From Pseudomonas chlororaphis subsp. piscium (GTDB lineage Bacteria; Pseudomonadota; Gammaproteobacteria; Pseudomonadales; Pseudomonadaceae): a stretch of DNA of 64,000 nucleotides. The stretch spans positions 2,480,001 through 2,544,000 of the forward strand of contig NZ_CP027707.1 of NCBI RefSeq assembly GCF_003850345.1, given 5' to 3'. The translations under genes were made by a program, and so were the position numbers. Shown here piece by piece: positions 21,717 to 28,772 of the stretch. How positions within the stretch are numbered: position 1 is the first letter of the stretch; every line of letters begins with the position of its first letter. The notes beneath the pieces were generated by a model. It saw nothing but the letters and a program-made list of their open reading frames with translations. It was not told the DNA's origin and did not search any database.

Positions 21717-23918
21717 TCATCTGGAAACAGCCGCCACCTTGGCCCGCGCCGCGTGCAGCTTCTTGTAGCTGTCGATCAGGCGCAGGTGCCGGTCGATCCC
21801 TTCCAGCTTCATGCTGGTCGGGGTCAAGCCATAGAAGCGCACATCGCCATTCACCGAGCCAATCACCGCATCCATCCGCTCGTTGCCAAACATGCGACGG
21901 AAATTGGCTTCGTAATCCGCCAGGTCCAGATCTTCGTCGAGCTCCATCTCCAGCACCGCATTCATCGCCTGGTAAAACAGGCCACGCTCGGCGGTGTTGT
22001 CGTTGTACTGCAGGAACATCTCCACGCACTCCTTGGCTTCTTCATATTGCTGCAAGGCCAGGAAGATCAGCAGCTTCAACTCGAGGATGGTCAGTTGGCC
22101 CCAGGCGGTGTTGTCGTCGAACTCGATGCCGATCAGGGTGGTGATATCGGTGTAGTCGTCCAGCTCGCTTTCTATCAGGCGCTCGAGCAACGCCTGCAAC
22201 TCATCCTCGTCGAGGCTGTGCAGGTTGAGGATATCCGCGCGGAAAAACAGCGCCTTGTTGGTGTTGTCCCAGATCAGGTCTTCCACCGGGTAGATTTCCG
22301 AGTAGTCCGGCACCAGGATGCGGCAGGCGGTGGCGCCCAGGTGCTCGTACACGGCCATGTAGGACTCTTTGCCCATGCCTTCGAGAATGCCGAACAAGGT
22401 CGCGGCTTCCTGGGCATTAGAGTCTTCACCCTGGCCGGAGAAGTCCCACTCGACGAATTCATAATCCGACTGGGCGCTGAAGAAGCGCCACGACACCACG
22501 CCGCTGGAGTCGATGAAGTGTTCGACGAAGTTGTTCGGCTCGGTGACCGCCTGGCCTTCGAACGTCGGCGGCGGCAAATCGTTCAAGCCCTCGAAGCTGC
22601 GACCTTGCAGCAGTTCGGTGAGGCTGCGCTCCAGCGCCACTTCCAGGCTTGGGTGAGCGCCGAACGAGGCAAATACGCCACCGGTACGCGGGTTCATCAA
22701 GGTCACGCACATCACCGGGAACTCACCGCCCAGGGATGCGTCCTTGACCAGCACCGGAAAGCCCTGGGCTTCCAGGCCCTGAATACCGGCGAGAATCCCC
22801 GGGTATTTGGCCAAGACTTCTGCCGGTACATCCGGCAGGGCGAACTCGCCTTCGATGATTTCGCGTTTGACGGCGCGCTCGAAGATCTCCGACAGGCACT
22901 GCACCTGGGCTTCGGCCAGGGTGTTGCCGGCGCTCATGCCATTGCTGAGGTAGAGGTTCTCGATCAGGTTGGACGGGAAGTACACCACTTCGCCGTCCGA
23001 CTGGCGCACGAATGGCAGCGAAACAATGCCGCGCTCTTCATTGCCGGAATTGGTGTCGAACAGGTGCGAGCCGCGCAGTTCGCCGTCGCGGTTGTAGATT
23101 TTCAGGCAGTAGGGGTCGAGGATTTCGCTGGGCAGCTCATCCTTGGGGCCCGGCTTGAACCAGCGCTCGTCCGGGTAATGCACGAACGGCGCGTTGGCGA
23201 TCTCCTCGCCCCAGAACTGATCGTTGTAGAAGAAGTTGCAGTTCAGGCGCTCGATGAACTCGCCCAGGGCCGAGGCCAGCGCGCCTTCCTTGGTCGCGCC
23301 CTTGCCATTGGTGAAGCACATCGGCGACTGCGCATCGCGGATATGCAGCGACCACACGTTGGGCACGATATTGCGCCACGAAGCGATCTCGATCTTCATG
23401 CCCAGGCCGGCCAGGATGCCGGACATGTTGGCGATGGTCTGCTCCAGCGGCAGGTCCTTGCCGACGATATAGGTGCTGTGCGAGCCCGCGCTCGGCATCA
23501 ACAAGGCCTGGGCATCGGCGTCGAGGTTTTCCACCTCTTCAATCACAAACTCAGGCCCGGCCTGTACCACTTTCTTGACGGTGCAACGGTCGATGGAGCG
23601 CAGGATGCCCAGGCGGTCCTTGTCGGAGATATCCACCGGCAACTCGACCTGGATCTTGAAGATCTGGTTGTAGCGGTTTTCCGGATCGACAATGTTGTTC
23701 TGCGACAGGCGAATGTTATCGGTGGGGATATTGCGGGTATCGCAGTACAACTTCACGAAGTACGCCGCGCACAACGCCGATGACGCCAGGAAATAGTCGA
23801 ACGGACCCGGTGCCGAGCCATCGCCCTTGTAGCGGATGGGCTGGTCGGCCACCACCGTGAAGTCATCGAACTTGGCTTCAAGTCGGAGGTTGTCGAGAAA
23901 GTTGACCTTGATTTCCAT
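21717..23918 (-). CDS. ycaO: OsmC-YcaO fusion protein
   Basis: A 733-residue protein. The N-terminal 130 residues are an OsmC-like domain (GDGSAPGPFDYFLASSALCA), then a full YcaO domain with conserved ATP-binding acidic/Arg segments (TKEGALASALGEFIERLNCN, AEAQVQCLSEIFERAVKRE), and a helical C-terminal region ending in a tetratricopeptide-like part. YcaO enzymes use ATP to activate peptide amide bonds; E. coli YcaO is linked to RimO-dependent modification of ribosomal protein S12. The E. coli protein also contains the OsmC-like part, so the length is normal. The ATG at 23918 is chosen over a GTG at 23927; neither has a strong ribosome site. Confidence 0.87.
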   Translation of the reverse strand: MEIKVNFLDNLRLEAKFDDFTVVADQPIRYKGDGSAPGPFDYFLASSALCAAYFVKLYCDTRNIPTDNIRLSQNNIVDPENRYNQIFKIQVELPVDISDKDRLGILRSIDRCTVKKVVQAGPEFVIEEVENLDADAQALLMPSAGSHSTYIVGKDLPLEQTIANMSGILAGLGMKIEIASWRNIVPNVWSLHIRDAQSPMCFTNGKGATKEGALASALGEFIERLNCNFFYNDQFWGEEIANAPFVHYPDERWFKPGPKDELPSEILDPYCLKIYNRDGELRGSHLFDTNSGNEERGIVSLPFVRQSDGEVVYFPSNLIENLYLSNGMSAGNTLAEAQVQCLSEIFERAVKREIIEGEFALPDVPAEVLAKYPGILAGIQGLEAQGFPVLVKDASLGGEFPVMCVTLMNPRTGGVFASFGAHPSLEVALERSLTELLQGRSFEGLNDLPPPTFEGQAVTEPNNFVEHFIDSSGVVSWRFFSAQSDYEFVEWDFSGQGEDSNAQEAATLFGILEGMGKESYMAVYEHLGATACRILVPDYSEIYPVEDLIWDNTNKALFFRADILNLHSLDEDELQALLERLIESELDDYTDITTLIGIEFDDNTAWGQLTILELKLLIFLALQQYEEAKECVEMFLQYNDNTAERGLFYQAMNAVLEMELDEDLDLADYEANFRRMFGNERMDAVIGSVNGDVRFYGLTPTSMKLEGIDRHLRLIDSYKKLHAARAKVAAVSR

Positions 23919-24006
23919 GGGGAACACCGAATAACGAGCAAAACGAAATGGCGGCCATTATCCGGTTTTTCAGCGCGAAGTCTTGCGCTTTTCGGCAAGC
24001 GGGTGG

Positions 24007-24345
24007 TCACGCTTCTTTGAGTACAAACTCAAGGCCAATACCTACTTCTTTCAATACCTGCGTAGCGCGGTCTACAAAGCGCTCGCCTTGCTCTGGCAGC
24101 TCATACAGGCCGGTGATGCGGATGATGGGAGATCTGCCTTTAGCTGCCGGGTAGCTTTCCAGAATTTCACCGCTTTCGATGAAGGCGATGTAAGTGTTGA
24201 TTTTTTCTTGAAGCAACAGCAGATGCTCACCTTGTTCAGCCTTGTTGCCCCACTCCAGGTGATCGGTAATGACCAGCACCACCTTGTCTGGCTCCCAATC
24301 GGGTACAGCACAAATGTCGATGACTCGGGTATCCAGAATGGACAT
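24007..24345 (-). CDS. DUF6572-like protein, last gene of bacteriocin immunity cluster
   Basis: A 112-residue protein beginning MSILDTRVIDICAV, with AAGGA before this start. The run VVLVITDHLEWGNKAEQGEH followed by LLLLQEKINTYIAFIESGEI resembles the DUF6572 family, which is often met near polymorphic-toxin and bacteriocin loci. It lies 48 bases downstream of the preceding gene and continues the same AT-richer minus-strand run as the immunity genes, so it is probably part of that cluster. Its role (immunity to another toxin or an unrelated passenger) is not known. Confidence 0.6.
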   Translation of the reverse strand: MSILDTRVIDICAVPDWEPDKVVLVITDHLEWGNKAEQGEHLLLLQEKINTYIAFIESGEILESYPAAKGRSPIIRITGLYELPEQGERFVDRATQVLKEVGIGLEFVLKEA

Positions 24346-24392
24346 GGTTTTTCCTTCATGGAGGGCGTGCCAGGCCAGCCATATAGCGTTGG

Positions 24393-24647
24393 TCAGCAGT
24401 GGCAACTGATGTACAGCTCCAGATCTTTGGGGAGTGGGATGGCTGTAAGGCGTTCTATGGCTCTGGCTTGCTCTCGGGTGAGGAGGTAGCTATGTAGGGC
24501 GTCTGCTTCGCTCTGCCAACCCATGATCGGCATCAGTATTTCTGTAGTGAGAATCGGTAGTTTTGTCTCGAATACAGCGTCGTCACTGTTTGCAGGTGCG
24601 CCGTGTATTTCGAATTTCAGTGGGGCTTTTCCGGTGCGAAACACCAT
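24393..24647 (-). CDS. Small DUF7683-like protein in bacteriocin immunity cluster
   Basis: An 84-residue protein (start MVFRTGKAP) whose ATG overlaps the stop of the preceding immunity gene as TGATG. The second half (MGWQSEADALHSYLLTREQA) resembles small DUF7683-type proteins, which I recall mainly from bacteriocin/CDI immunity regions. It is not an Im9 homologue. Overlap with the fifth immunity gene indicates coupled translation and a shared operon. Confidence 0.55.
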   Translation of the reverse strand: MVFRTGKAPLKFEIHGAPANSDDAVFETKLPILTTEILMPIMGWQSEADALHSYLLTREQARAIERLTAIPLPKDLELYISCHC

Positions 24648-24907
24648 CACGACTTGAACCCTGGTAGCCCGTTGGCCCTGCGCCAGTTTTTTACGGTCTT
24701 GGTTATGCCCTCGGGGGAGTCATCGGCCCCATCTTCTGGATAGAAGATAAGGTCAGTACCGTCTGGGTGCTCGCTAAGCTGTCTGAATTGCATCAGCAGT
24801 TTGCCAAGGTCCTTGTCGGAACTTGCTTCGTTGATGGCAAGTATTTTATGGATGAGGCTAACGAACTCGGTCTCGGTGTAATCGGTAATGGATTTTTTAA
24901 TGGTCAT
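24647..24907 (-). CDS. Colicin E9/pyocin-type immunity protein, paralogue 5
   Basis: An 86-residue Im2/7/8/9-family protein that binds a colicin-type DNase and blocks it. The toxin-binding helix III reads [19 protein letters not shown], where Im9 has DLIYYP, so the first hot-spot Tyr is Phe. The N-terminal MTIKKSITDYTETEF matches Im9 closely, while helix II (SSDKDLGKLLMQFRQLSEH) differs from the other copies; helix II sets partner specificity in E-colicins. It overlaps the preceding copy by eleven bases and the next gene by one to three, consistent with one polycistronic transcript. Confidence 0.88.
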   Translation of the reverse strand: MTIKKSITDYTETEFVSLIHKILAINEASSDKDLGKLLMQFRQLSEHPDGTDLIFYPEDGADDSPEGITKTVKNWRRANGLPGFKS

Positions 24908-25187
24908 CGCTGTATGGGGTCTTGAACCCTGGCAGGCCGTTTGCCTTGCGCCACTCTTTGACGATTCGAGTGACTTCCTCGGGGGACCCGCTCGAACCGT
25001 TTTCGGGGTAATAAATCAAATCGGAGCCTGCCGGATGCTGGCTGATATTTTTGAAATGCAATAGAAGTGCGTCAGCACGAATATCTATTTCGGCTTCCAT
25101 ATCTTCCTTGAGAAGCTCCTCTAACAATTCGATGAATTCGGCCTCGGTGTAGTCCGAGAAGCTGTTTTTCATCAGTGTGTTTGTCAT
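24897..25187 (-). CDS. Colicin/pyocin-type immunity protein, paralogue 4
   Basis: A 96-residue Im9-family protein. It keeps the canonical hot-spot DLIYYPEN with both Tyr residues, and the family C-terminal block [12 protein letters not shown], followed by a seven-residue extension. Helix II region (IDIRADALLLHFKNISQH) is unlike the other copies. Start 25187 (MTNTLMKNSFSDYTEAEF) is chosen by family alignment; MKNSF at 25172 is possible. It begins seven bases after the previous stop and overlaps copy 5. Confidence 0.87.
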   Translation of the reverse strand: MTNTLMKNSFSDYTEAEFIELLEELLKEDMEAEIDIRADALLLHFKNISQHPAGSDLIYYPENGSSGSPEEVTRIVKEWRKANGLPGFKTPYSDDH

Positions 25188-25194
25188 GGCTGGC

Positions 25195-25467
25195 CTACTC
25201 AGCACTCGTTTTGAACCCTGGCAAGCCATTAGCCTTGCGCCACTCTTTAACGGTGTTGGTTATACCTTCGGGGGTGCATTGCGTTTCCTCCTCCGGCCAG
25301 TAGATCAGGTCGGATCCGTCTGGATGCTCGGTAAGCCGTCTGAACTCGTCCAGAAGGTCATCCAGCACTTCATCGGAAGTGCCGTTCCCATTTGCGGTAA
25401 ATATTACCTGCATGAAGCTAATGAACTCGGCTTGGGTGCATTCATTAAGACGACTTTTTGAGGCCAT
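25195..25467 (-). CDS. Colicin/pyocin-type immunity protein, paralogue 3
   Basis: A 90-residue Im9-family protein and the most diverged copy. The N-terminal block is MASKSRLNECTQAEF, and the hot-spot reads DLIYWPEEE, replacing the second Tyr by Trp and losing the DD pair that follows in Im9. AAGGAG inside the end of the preceding gene serves as ribosome site for the start at 25467. If functional it probably binds a different DNase from the one encoded at this locus. Confidence 0.86.
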   Translation of the reverse strand: MASKSRLNECTQAEFISFMQVIFTANGNGTSDEVLDDLLDEFRRLTEHPDGSDLIYWPEEETQCTPEGITNTVKEWRKANGLPGFKTSAE

Positions 25468-25471
25468 TGCT

Positions 25472-25750
25472 TTATGACTCCTTGAGTCCCGGCAAGCCAT
25501 TGGCCTTACGCCAGTCTTGGACTGTTTTCAAAATTCCCTTTGGCGAATCGTCTTCGCCATCCTCGGGATAGTAAATCCAGTCAGATGCAGCCGGGTTGCC
25601 GGTCATTTCAATAAAGTGCTCTAACAGCTGATCCTGATATTTCTCCGTGCCCACCGCATTGCATATTTCTTCAAGCAGTTTAAGAAAATCGCTTTCGGTG
25701 TACTCAAGTAGAGAGCCTGGGAACCTGGTCATCTCAGTCGTAAATCTCAT
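25472..25750 (-). CDS. Colicin/pyocin-type immunity protein, paralogue 2
   Basis: A 92-residue Im9-family protein if started at ATG 25750; ATG 25732 (MTRFPGSLLEYTESDF) fits the family length better, and neither has a clear ribosome site. Hot-spot DWIYYPEDGEDDSPKGI keeps both Tyr residues but replaces the Leu by Trp. The helix II region (TEKYQDQLLEHFIEMTGN) differs from its neighbours. It ends in GLPGLKES, four bases before copy 3. Confidence 0.86.
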   Translation of the reverse strand: MRFTTEMTRFPGSLLEYTESDFLKLLEEICNAVGTEKYQDQLLEHFIEMTGNPAASDWIYYPEDGEDDSPKGILKTVQDWRKANGLPGLKES

Positions 25751-25762
25751 CACCAAACGCCA

Positions 25763-26017
25763 TCACGATTTGAATCCTGGCAAGCCATTAGCCCTGCGCC
25801 ACTCTTTGACTGTTTTCAAGATTCCTTCTGGCGAGTCATCAGCATCGTCAGAGGGGTAAAAAATCAGATCTGAGCCTTTGGGATGCTCTGAAATTTTCCG
25901 AAAATGCTGAACTAAAGCGGAATGATCTTCCTCGCTTTGACAGTTGACCTCGCAGATATCTGTCAAAAGTTGAAGGAACTCTTTTTCTGTGTAATCAGAA
26001 ATGCTGTTTTTTAGCAT
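25763..26017 (-). CDS. Cognate colicin E9/pyocin-type immunity protein, paralogue 1
   Basis: An 84-residue Im9-family protein whose start is two bases after the toxin stop, the normal position for the cognate immunity gene. It is the copy closest to colicin Im9 by eye: [19 protein letters not shown] near the start and [18 protein letters not shown] at the toxin-binding helix. It should bind the HNH DNase of the upstream gene tightly and protect the producer. Four further homologues follow in the same direction. Confidence 0.92.
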
Positions 26018-26019
26018 GC

Positions 26020-27339
26020 TTAATTTGTTCCTCTATGAATATCAATGTGCCTTCTAGGTGTCGCTACGCTCAGGTTGTCAACATCGTAAATAGCGCCCCC
26101 TTGGGCAATTTCGACATGATGGTGTAGCTCGTACTTTTCTCGCGATCCCACTCGACCACTTTCTGGTGTGTATGGGGAAAACCCTTTATCTAGCAGCTTT
26201 TGGTTGACTGTTCTGAACTGACTTCTTAATTCTGAATCATTACCTACAGCCCTCCAAAACGCCTCCCGAAAAGCATCAAAGCTTCTGAACTCCTTCCCGC
26301 GCAACTGATCGGCAATCTCCGTGGGTATCGGAGAGCCCAACCCTGAGCCCGCCCCAGCAAGCCAGACTCCACCTATATCCTGCCCGTGACCCGTAACCGT
26401 ACCGGGCGTCTTGCGCACGCTCAGCACGATATAGAGCGGCTGAACCCCAGACCCCGGCGGGAACACCAGGATGAAGTCCTTGTACTCCGGCGGGTAGACC
26501 GGGTTGACGATGATGGTGTCCGCCTGTTCGGTGGGCGGAAAGATCCAGATGTGGGGGGCCTGGGGCGCGGCCTCCAGCGGGGGGATGCCGGAGGTGCTGG
26601 ACGGGTCGACTGCTGGGGTCCAGATCAGGGTGACGCCGTCGCCGAAGTCGGCCACCTGTTGCTGGCCTTTGGCAACGAAGCGCACCACCGGGACCATTTC
26701 CCAGCCACGCTGCTTTTGCGTGTTATAGCCGTAGCCCTTGAGCGTGCCGTCGGGCCGTTGTTCGATATGCAGGCGGACGCGGGTGCGGCCTTCCTTCAGG
26801 GCGTCGAGTTGCTCAGGCGTGTACAAGGCGCTATCGCCCAGGTTCGACGGCCAGAGCATGGCCACCAGGCCAGCCAGGGCACCCGCGACGACTCCGCCGG
26901 TTGCCGCGCCAGCCCCCGCGGACGCCATGGCCTCGCCACCCAGCGCAAGGCTGCCCAGCGCGGCGGGAAGGGCGCCGCCGCTGATTTTCTTGAGCGGGAT
27001 ATTCCCCGTCGCGTCGGCTCCACGACCACCCAGCAAGACAAGCTCGCCATAGTCCTTGATGGCGTCGGTGGGGATTGCTCCGGATGGGCTGAGGTAGTCC
27101 ATGACCCCGTCGGGCAGCTTGCAGGATTTGGTGAAGGTGCAGCCGGCAATCGCCTGTTGCTTGCGGGGTGGGCTGGCGAGGCTGTCCGCATAAGCTTGTT
27201 GGCGGGCCAGCATCCGTTCATAGGCGTTTTGCCTGGCCTCTTGCTCCGCCAGTTCGCTGGGCGTCATGTCTCTATAGGTGACGTGATGCCCGTCGCCGGA
27301 AGGGGGATTCTTGATCGGGGAGAGTCTGTTGCGGGCCAT
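26020..27339 (-). CDS. S-type pyocin-like bacteriocin with HNH DNase domain
   Basis: A 439-residue toxin. Residues about 60-175 carry the S-pyocin-type segment ([20 protein letters not shown]) followed by a Gly/Ala-rich hydrophobic stretch; about 175-335 match the pyocin-S translocation region; about 340-439 are a colicin E9-type DNase. Active-site residues are His406-His407 in ELHH, Asn422, and His431/His435 in RHIDIHRG. The long N-terminal receptor-binding part of classical S pyocins (often over 600 residues in total) is lacking, so delivery may differ. The 3' DNase part is AT-richer than the 5' part, suggesting domain swapping together with the immunity genes. No lysis gene or clear LexA/P-box was found. 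Confidence 0.9.
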
Positions 27340-27548
27340 CGAGCGTTCTGCCTGTCCATCCGTTGCGGTTTTCCAGCCGGAGGCGGGATGGCATCAACCC
27401 TATTGGGTAGGGCGGGGCATTACTGTGGGAGGAATCTGAAAGGTTTGAAGGGCGAGTCTTTACTTTTGTGGGCTGGCGGCCCATCTATGCTGCCGCACTG
27501 GGTTCCTGCTTAAATGCCAGCGCCTATCCACTCAGCGCGTCTGACACC

Positions 27549-28772
27549 ATGAATACCTTCAAGGACGAACTCGCTCTCACCGAGCCACCAGCCGACGAGG
27601 CCTCGATCCGTCGCCGGTCGTTGTTTGCCGGCTGTGGAGCCCATGCCATCCATGATGGCCTGACCGACCTGATCTATGTCTTGCTGCCCATCTGGCAAAG
27701 CCAGTTCGGCCTGAGCTTTGCCCAGGTCGGGCTGTTGCGTGGGGCCTATTCGGGGATGATGGCCGGCTTTCAGTTGTTGGCCAGCCGCGCGGCCAGGCGC
27801 TGGGGGCGCGAGCGTCTGCTGGTGGGCGGTACCGCACTGGCCGGGTTGGCCTATCTGCTGGCGGGGCAGGCCGGGGGCCTGACGGTATTGCTGTTGGCCC
27901 TGATGTTGGGTGGGCTGGGGGCAAGTACCCAGCATCCGCTGGCGTCGTCGATGATCACCGATACCCATGAGGCTGGTGGCGGCGTCAAGCAAGCGTTGGC
28001 GCAGTACAACTTTTCCGGCGATATCGGCAAGACCCTGATTCCGGGGCTGGTGGGCCTGTTGCTGACGCTGCTCAGCTGGCGCGCCAGTGTCACCCTGATG
28101 GGGCTGCTCGGGCTGGCGGCCGCCGGGTTGCTGTGGTGGTTGATTCCGGCGCAGGCGGCGGAGTCGTCCAAGCCTGCAAAGACCGCCAAGACGATCAGCG
28201 GAAAAGGCTCGGCCAGCGGGCTGCGGGCGCTGATTGTCACCGGCACCCTGGACAGCGCGGTACGCATGGGTTTCCTGACCTTCCTGCCGTTTCTGCTGAA
28301 GGCCAAGGGCGCCGGCACGGCGGGTATCGGCCTGGCCTTGACCCTGCTGTTTGTCGGCGGGGCCTTCGGCAAGTTGCTGTGCGGTTACCTGGGCGCGCGC
28401 ATCGGCATGATGAAGACCGTGTGGCTCACGGAGTTCACCACGGCGCTGCTGATCGTACTGGCGGTGTACTTACCCTATCTGGGCCTGATGGCGGTCCTGC
28501 CGCTGCTGGGGCTGGCGTTGAACGGCACCTCGTCGGTGCTTTATGGCGCGGTGCCGGATCTGGCGGGGGCGGGCAAGCGCGAGCAGGCGTTCGCGATCTT
28601 CTATACCGGCACCATCGGCGGCGGGGCGCTGGCGCCGGTGCTGTTCGGCAGCCTGGGGGACGTCACTGGCGTGCCCGTCGCGGTGATGGTGCTGGCGGCT
28701 ACCTTGCTGCTGACGTTGCCCCTGTCCTGGTCTGTACAGCGCGGCCTGGATGCGGATGCTCGGCTGGTCTGA
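27549..28772 (+). CDS. MFS transporter, Fsr (fosmidomycin resistance)-like
   Basis: A 407-residue twelve-helix transporter. The first helix region GCGAHAIHDGLTDLIYVLLP and the next segment (LSFAQVGLLRGAYSGMMAGF) are characteristic of the Fsr branch, proton-driven drug exporters in the inner membrane. The ATG at 27549 is selected because it begins the first plausible cytoplasmic N-terminus (MNTFKDELALTEPP). It is divergent from the bacteriocin gene but base composition and function suggest no link to it. Actual substrate unknown. Confidence 0.82.
   Translation: MNTFKDELALTEPPADEASIRRRSLFAGCGAHAIHDGLTDLIYVLLPIWQSQFGLSFAQVGLLRGAYSGMMAGFQLLASRAARRWGRERLLVGGTALAGLAYLLAGQAGGLTVLLLALMLGGLGASTQHPLASSMITDTHEAGGGVKQALAQYNFSGDIGKTLIPGLVGLLLTLLSWRASVTLMGLLGLAAAGLLWWLIPAQAAESSKPAKTAKTISGKGSASGLRALIVTGTLDSAVRMGFLTFLPFLLKAKGAGTAGIGLALTLLFVGGAFGKLLCGYLGARIGMMKTVWLTEFTTALLIVLAVYLPYLGLMAVLPLLGLALNGTSSVLYGAVPDLAGAGKREQAFAIFYTGTIGGGALAPVLFGSLGDVTGVPVAVMVLAATLLLTLPLSWSVQRGLDADARLV

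Follow-up and report, generated by a model that had tools for sequence, protein, structure and literature searches.

The window analysed here is a 64,000-nt stretch of Pseudomonas chlororaphis subsp. piscium DNA (RefSeq assembly GCF_003850345.1, contig NZ_CP027707.1, positions 2,480,001 to 2,544,000 of the forward strand). It contains a gene for a Pyocin_S toxin with an HNH deoxyribonuclease (DNase) domain, and directly behind it a run of seven immunity-type genes, five of the Im9 family (c1 to c5) and two of other families. The toxin, its domains, and the seven genes have the following window coordinates.

26020..27339, minus strand: toxin gene, 439 aa, with an N-terminal part (residues 1–174), Pyocin_S, and an HNH colicin/pyocin DNase domain
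26425..26817, minus strand: Pyocin_S (PF06958) region of the toxin, residues 175–305 (Pfam)
26032..26403, minus strand: Col-Pyo_DNase (PF21431) region of the toxin, residues 313–436 (Pfam, 177 bits)
25763..26017, minus strand: c1, Im9-family gene, 84 aa, at the head position and presumed cognate (PF01320; position)
25472..25732, minus strand: c2, Im9-family gene, 86 aa (PF01320; tree)
25195..25467, minus strand: c3, Im9-family gene, 90 aa (PF01320; tree)
24897..25187, minus strand: c4, Im9-family gene, 96 aa (PF01320; tree)
24647..24907, minus strand: c5, Im9-family gene, 86 aa (PF01320; tree)
24393..24650, minus strand: gene six, 85 aa, pyocin S6-type (ribosomal RNA nuclease, rRNase) immunity family (NF040643 34.7 bits, cut-off 30; DUF7683 27.2, cut-off 27)
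24007..24345, minus strand: gene seven, 112 aa, DUF6572 (PF20212, 114.6 bits)

The preliminary description of this DNA, made from the sequence alone, placed the toxin at 26020–27339 and behind it five intact, tightly packed Im9-family genes in the same direction. We confirm the coordinates, the strand, and the PF01320 matches, and the five hot-spot strings that it quoted are correct, but the bank is larger than it recognized, since it missed the two further immunity-type genes at 24393–24650 and 24007–24345. Scores of c1–c5 against PF01320 are 89–132 bits (cut-off 21.2); these five genes are free of internal stops, and all seven immunity-type genes are open. The toxin and c1 are separated by 2 nt, c1 and c2 by 30 nt (with the likeliest c2 start, ATG 25732, which gives 86 aa; TTG 25756 is possible), c2 and c3 by 4 nt, and c3 and c4 by 7 nt, after which c4 overlaps c5 by 11 nt, c5 overlaps gene six by 4 nt, and a 47-nt gap leads to gene seven. 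With seven co-directional immunity-type genes in tandem, gaps of at most 47 nt, and no toxin between, this is a polyimmunity locus. The helix III toxin-binding motif D-x-I-[YF]-[YW]-P is kept throughout c1–c5 (DLIFYP, DWIYYP, DLIYWP, DLIYYP, and DLIFYP, in order), and pairwise identity among the five proteins is 40–63%. A scan of 23900–27600 for sigma-70-like promoters, in itself not informative, returned no site, and the gene strand shows a single terminator-like site, within the toxin gene.

A sibling search that took one genome per species and kept 79 loci yielded two that share the window flanks, L255 (Pseudomonas sp. NFIX28) and L256 (P. chlororaphis PCL1601); the other loci compared below likewise carry L numbers. 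The preliminary description had proposed looking for the array in related strains, and the same locus does occur there with differing content, namely one Im gene in L255 and two in L256, as against five plus two other-family genes in the window. L255 has a DNase toxin of C-terminal type D and, in head position, an immunity gene with 87% identity to c2, while the type E2 DNase toxin of L256 has a head immunity gene 78% identical to c3 and a second immunity gene 79% identical to c1. In both siblings these genes lie before the same YcaO flank as in the window. The flanks and the unit exchanged between them are as follows.

21717..23927, minus strand: YcaO/OsmC-domain gene, array-side flank, at 94% DNA identity in L255 and L256
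27468..28772, plus strand: major facilitator superfamily (MFS) transporter, divergent toxin-side flank, present in L255
25763..26226, minus strand: exchangeable head cassette, comprising the toxin 3′ end (residues 372–439, exosite and HNH) and c1 (DNA alignment, GC content)

Flanks and toxin 5′ part are 84–94% identical at the DNA level to those of L255 and L256. The window aligns with L255 at 93% up to about toxin residue 371 and again at c2 (86%); the toxin 3′ end has no blastn match in either L255 or L256 (56% and 61% by global alignment), and the sole match of c1 in L255 is 83 bp of shared Im 3′ end. Against the second Im gene of L256, c1 is 78% identical over 248 bp. Guanine-plus-cytosine (GC) content is 45% in the toxin end and 43% in c1, versus 64% in the remainder of the toxin gene; the drop falls within the DNase gene, immediately ahead of the exosite. 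Because the alignment break and the GC drop coincide, we take the exchanged unit to be the exosite, the nuclease core, and the immunity gene together. The single Im gene of L255 has two more genes behind it (L255:5636-6642), of which one belongs to DUF7079 and the other lacks a Pfam match; these are possibly further immunity genes.

In a tree of 142 Im proteins, which has few alignment columns and unsure deep forks, c1–c5 occupy five positions. Beside c1 stands an L256 copy, beside c2 the head gene of L255 together with the L165 cognate, and beside c3 the head gene of L256; c4 groups with other P. chlororaphis proteins, one L010 gene, and the cognates of L087, L152, L113, L159 and others (the four named cognates are 70–78% identical to it), and c5 shares a clade with the L078 and L163 cognates. 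At the positions that we take to set specificity (Im9 30, 33, 34, 37, 38, 41, 42, 50, 51, 54, and 55), c2 shares 11 of 11 residues with the L165 cognate, c4 shares 10 of 11 with that of L152, and c5 shares 9 of 11 with that of L163; among the cognates listed, c3 has no comparable match. The exosite, which we assume to correspond to E9 residues 68–99, was placed on the window toxin by alignment, as the Im9 positions were on c1. By this measure the L165, L152, and L163 toxins are 28–34% identical to the local toxin, where the median for unrelated pairs is 31%. The preliminary description had read the extra copies as a library against foreign nucleases. Comparison supports that reading in part, in that the specificity helices of c2–c5 differ, the copies clade with cognates of other DNases, and the relatives of c2 and c3 are head genes of other alleles, but it missed the likely origin by cassette displacement.

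We then compared these features with a genus set built from places in 398 genomes, taken from the upper part of score-ranked lists with preference for clusters (140 stretches plus 29 loci). Extraction of Im genes and DNase domains with hidden Markov models (HMMs) gave 175 loci, 171 of them with an Im match; once six overlapping loci (L022, L025, L028, L035, L041, and L044) were dropped, the final set held 274 full-length Im genes at 164 loci. Because the loci are a non-random, array-enriched sample, array frequencies in this set do not estimate prevalence, and loci related to one another do not count as independent. An intact DNase precedes 128 of the 274 genes and another Im gene precedes 79, while 19 stand elsewhere; the remaining 48, out of 127 full-length secondary copies, are preceded by a toxin 3′ remnant. 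In this array-enriched sample 67 of 165 loci have at least two full-length copies, so that a single cognate immunity gene, which the preliminary description gave as the rule, was an overstatement. At least five full-length copies occur at four loci (the window, L056, L061, and L065); the last (L065:5635-9834, genome G278) has eight, separated only by toxin fragments, and lacks an intact DNase.

The nearest neighbour lies within the same locus for only 13 of the 127 secondary copies, and for 66 a foreign cognate reaches at least 70% identity. Where the head toxin is intact, a foreign cognate is closer than the copy's own head gene for 80 of 87 secondary copies (medians 73% versus 46%). For those of them with a foreign cognate at 70% or above (n = 52), the exosite of that cognate's toxin is a median 34% identical to that of the local head toxin, and only 2 of these 52 reach 60%; in the head-gene control the median is 78% (n = 92), and 78 reach 60% (Mann–Whitney p about 4e-20, not corrected for relatedness). 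Since the foreign exosites resemble the local one little more than background, far below the head-gene control, the secondary copies appear to carry specificities other than that of the adjacent toxin.

PF01320 genes were found in 178 of the 398 genomes, with a maximum of nine, common to five genomes. The genome of the window has nine: c1–c5, three in the toxin-less array L010, and one beside the DNase toxin L011. The clustering in the window is not chance, because five of the nine in a 7.07-Mb genome fall within 1.4 kb. PF21431 toxins number two (the window and L011), and the immunity gene of L011 is 36–51% identical to c1–c5; as the only other DNase toxin of the family in the genome thus has its own Im gene, c2–c5 are left without an evident partner at home. 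In L010 (L010:4940-5891, C1:4710940-4711890) the three Im9-family genes stand without a toxin, the first is preceded by a DNase 3′ remnant, the last 18–20 codons, and one is 76% identical to c4. The genome also has two DUF6572 genes, and its seven matches to the S6-type immunity family, of which six exceed the cut-off, are the top count among 298 genus genomes. At L223:1085-3702, an rRNase toxin with an S6-type immunity gene is followed by a remnant of a toxin of the type ending in GKGKPG and a DUF6572 gene; this locus is a displacement fossil in the window's own genome.

The gene content, the differing specificity signatures, the sibling alleles at the same locus, and the toxin remnants in related arrays are observed directly; the order of events, expression, binding, and protection in what follows are inferred. 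We consider it likely that this is a polyimmunity array formed by cassette displacement at one chromosomal toxin locus, its extra genes probably protective. The conserved 5′ part of the toxin would stay in place and anchor an incoming cassette, in which a toxin 3′ end (exosite and nuclease core) and its linked immunity gene would be exchanged as a unit. Each new cassette would enter at the head; the old toxin end would be lost and the old immunity gene would remain downstream. Under this model c2–c5 would be immunity genes belonging to DNase alleles that are earlier or foreign, an rRNase toxin would be the counterpart of gene six, and a toxin of a third type that of gene seven. The array is probably co-expressed from one transcript, and the extra genes probably protect the cell against strains still delivering those toxins. 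We read the array as a stored record because its extra genes resemble the immunity genes of other toxins, two of them seen at the same locus in relatives. A defensive role is suggested because the orphan S6-type immunity gene of the PAO1 pyocin S2 locus was shown to protect (PMC4905994), and because immunity genes are mostly intact where toxins have eroded. The present DNase is presumed to have c1 as its immunity gene, whose status as sole cognate follows mainly from its position.

The toxin alleles of the P. chlororaphis group were compared in 48 entries: 45 homologous proteins, the window, L255, and L256 (P0044 and L256 are apparently the same gene). By C-terminal end, 17 are of type C, 16 of type A, five plus L255 of type D, two of type B (window included), one of type E1, two of type E2, two of an rRNase type, and one of the GKGKPG type, with one protein in no type. 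Residues 1–305 are 90–100% identical in all types but E2 (80%), that is, seven C-terminal types share this part at 90% or more. L255 and L256 sit at the window's locus, and the shared 5′ part suggests that the remaining allele proteins do so as well.

Relatives of the non-Im9 genes point to other toxin ends. A gene six relative (43%) in L236 overlaps the end of a toxin with Pyocin_S and the Cytotoxic (PF09000) rRNase domain; relatives at 40–42% in L268, L278, L280, and L297 have a spacing behind the putative toxin that would fit the same arrangement. DUF6572 genes lie directly behind a Pyocin_S-type toxin with a GKGKPG end in four of eight inspected loci (L241, L243, L244, and L248), and the second DUF6572 gene of the window's genome is preceded by a 3′ remnant of such a toxin, of which no longer copy was found. 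To DUF6572 Pfam assigns no function; these neighbourhoods suggest that its members are immunity genes for a Pyocin_S toxin whose end is of a third kind. That end carries a D...ECK motif that we take to be reminiscent of PD-(D/E)xK nucleases.

These alleles raise the further proposal, to which we give about an even chance, that the array keeps an allele-matched memory of the locus it occupies, most genes pairing one-to-one with cassettes circulating there. The proposed pairs are c1 with B, c2 with D, c3 with E2, c5 with C, gene six with rRNase, and gene seven with GKGKPG, with none for c4. Direct adjacency in the siblings supports c2–D and c3–E2, and position suggests c1–B; c5–C (through L163, whose exosite is 69% and whose Im protein is 68% identical), gene six, and gene seven are putatively paired through relatives. 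If the proposal is true, the strain could switch cassettes without becoming sensitive to the strains left behind, and gaps in the list, with allele A as the predicted one, would mark kin able to kill it.

Several observations weigh against the displacement reading. The toxins of the genus-set cognates nearest to c1 have exosites just 28–34% identical to the local one, and because of this unlikeness those cognates fail to confirm c1 as the partner. In L130 the toxin exosite is 47% identical to the local one and the Im protein is 59% identical to c2, for which reason c2 might cross-react with the local toxin. No toxin remnant was found between the window copies, either by HMM or in translations of the 90 nt upstream of c2–c5, gene six, and gene seven. 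None of the closest gene six relatives (L229, 54%; L233 and L234, 47%) has an rRNase toxin directly in front of it; at the other four of the eight inspected DUF6572 loci (L246, L247, L249, and L250) the gene is not directly behind a GKGKPG-end protein; and no partner allele for c4 was identified in P. chlororaphis. Allele A is second only to C with 16 of the 48 entries. Its likely immunity protein is P0307, from a cluster whose longest contig equals in length that of an A-type toxin; P0307 shares only 62% identity with the window copy closest to it, which means that the bank would leave allele A uncovered. Finally, secondary copies in the genus set do decay: of 105 "array" pieces, 26 are partial or split, compared with 1 of 129 head pieces (one broken gene can yield two pieces).

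These last two points are also what one would expect if the extra genes were inert relics, immunity genes of displaced toxins that no longer matter and persist for want of decay. We think this unlikely: all seven window genes are open, and where only the tail of a toxin is left, 48 of the 52 Im pieces behind such remnants are full-length. Moreover, five relatives of c4 at 84–90% identity in other P. chlororaphis-group genomes all keep the helix II core D-[IV]-RADALLLHF; three of them lie on contigs equal in length to contigs with A-, E1-, and C-type toxins, and so probably in genomes with other head toxins. An improbable further reading, compatible with displacement, holds that the extra genes mainly make the locus safe for incoming cassettes and do not serve against attackers. 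It fits the differing toxin ends at the same locus in related strains, except that in L255 and L256 the toxin end arrives with its own head immunity gene.

Tandem duplication of one cognate gene, for dosage or as a buffer against the same toxin, would account for five PF01320 genes in one run behind a single toxin, and c1 and c5 are 63% identical, c5 being the second-best genus-set match of c1. It is nevertheless strongly disfavoured, and we reject it as a very remote prospect, given that the copies are scattered in the tree of Im proteins. The closest known relative of each is in another strain or locus, the specificity helices differ among them, and gene six and gene seven come from other families.

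Returning to the toxin, its DNase domain has the HNH residues of the ELHH...N...H...H motif. The name "bacteriocin" used in the preliminary description is uncertain because no receptor-binding domain was recognized, residues 1–174 having no Pfam match. PF06958 is treated as an inner-membrane translocation domain in the relevant passage of PMC9040868. For the N-terminal part, Pfam, NCBIfam, and a homologue search with residues 1–170 gave no delivery marker, whether receptor-binding or of the type VI secretion system (T6SS). PAAR, VgrG, Hcp, and MIX are absent from the 10 proteins scanned (eight window neighbours, which have no T6SS domains, and two L255 genes), and the Pfam lists of the 120 homologues listed of 649, all similar-length proteins, include no T6SS fusion domain; the two VipB (T6SS sheath) genes of the genome are away from the window. 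The VPA1263 model NF047924 aligns to residues 91–435 at 244 bits, far under its cut-off of 900. In the 250 nt upstream of the toxin there is no match, exact or loosened, to the P-box consensus for PrtN regulation (PMC4905994), and the SOS-box-like sites upstream have two mismatches, which we judged weak and did not use. A structure prediction from 28 sequences (mean predicted local distance difference test score, pLDDT, 37) was too poor for use.

Immunity arrays are already known, and the window is a mixed-family, well-preserved variant of polyimmunity and displacement arrays. Vibrio cholerae T6SS immunity gene arrays, for which sequential displacement was proposed (Kirchberger et al. 2017, PMC5361080), likewise have a head effector, orphan immunity genes resembling the cognates of other strains, and the same proposed history. 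Remnants of displaced effectors occur within those arrays, whereas here they occur at other loci of the genome and genus; and those arrays belong to T6SS clusters, unlike this stand-alone chromosomal Pyocin_S and DNase locus with mostly Im9-family genes. Polyimmunity loci, as outlined in main-text parts of Zhang et al. (2012, PMC3482391), share tandem, co-directional, tight, and diverged genes and a content that varies among relatives; here, by contrast, a toxin stands at the head and three immunity-type families are mixed, and PF01320 is not named in those parts among the families of homogeneous loci.

The PAO1 S2 locus, as far as the consulted portion of PMC4905994 describes it, is similar in having a DNase toxin with cognate immunity gene and then an S6-type immunity gene, the latter preceded by a toxin 3′ remnant. 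It has one DNase immunity gene and two orphans (S6-type and tRNA nuclease-type), versus five DNase-type and two others here. The window toxin appears to belong to the N1 group of the P. fluorescens group, bacteriocins that combine PF06958 with active domains, DNase or colicin-E3-like, that can be exchanged (Loper et al. 2012, PMC3390384); the passages of that paper on N1 loci do not describe immunity arrays such as that of the window. The T6SS effectors of VPA1263 type (PMC9602870) and YPK_0952 (PMC11237486) are also pyocin-like DNases with a downstream immunity gene, and they differ from the window toxin, at which no MIX or other known T6SS marker was recognized. Among the open-access records listed in literature searches, none describes five Im9-type genes behind one toxin in its title or opening abstract lines.

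DNase–Im pairs are a standard model for the evolution of protein-binding specificity. Five diverged natural Im proteins, matched by toxin alleles of sister strains, constitute a ready cognate/non-cognate set, and the locus yields a testable prediction of who kills whom. The value of the window array lies in this partial but striking match between the bank and sister-strain toxin ends. It bears on how far immunity arrays restrict the use of nuclease bacteriocins, and it would carry the displacement model beyond the T6SS clusters of Vibrio to the Pyocin_S toxins of Pseudomonas.

Six Pyocin_S matches are present in the genome of the window. At L222:2622-3488 (C1:2902621-2903484), three tandem S6-type immunity genes lie upstream of a PAAR-domain protein. 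At L225:1676-5549, in the same genome, a 477-aa Pyocin_S protein is followed by five tandem, mutually similar genes of ∼155–190 aa, of which both that were scanned match DUF6392; this is possibly another immunity array, of an unstudied family.

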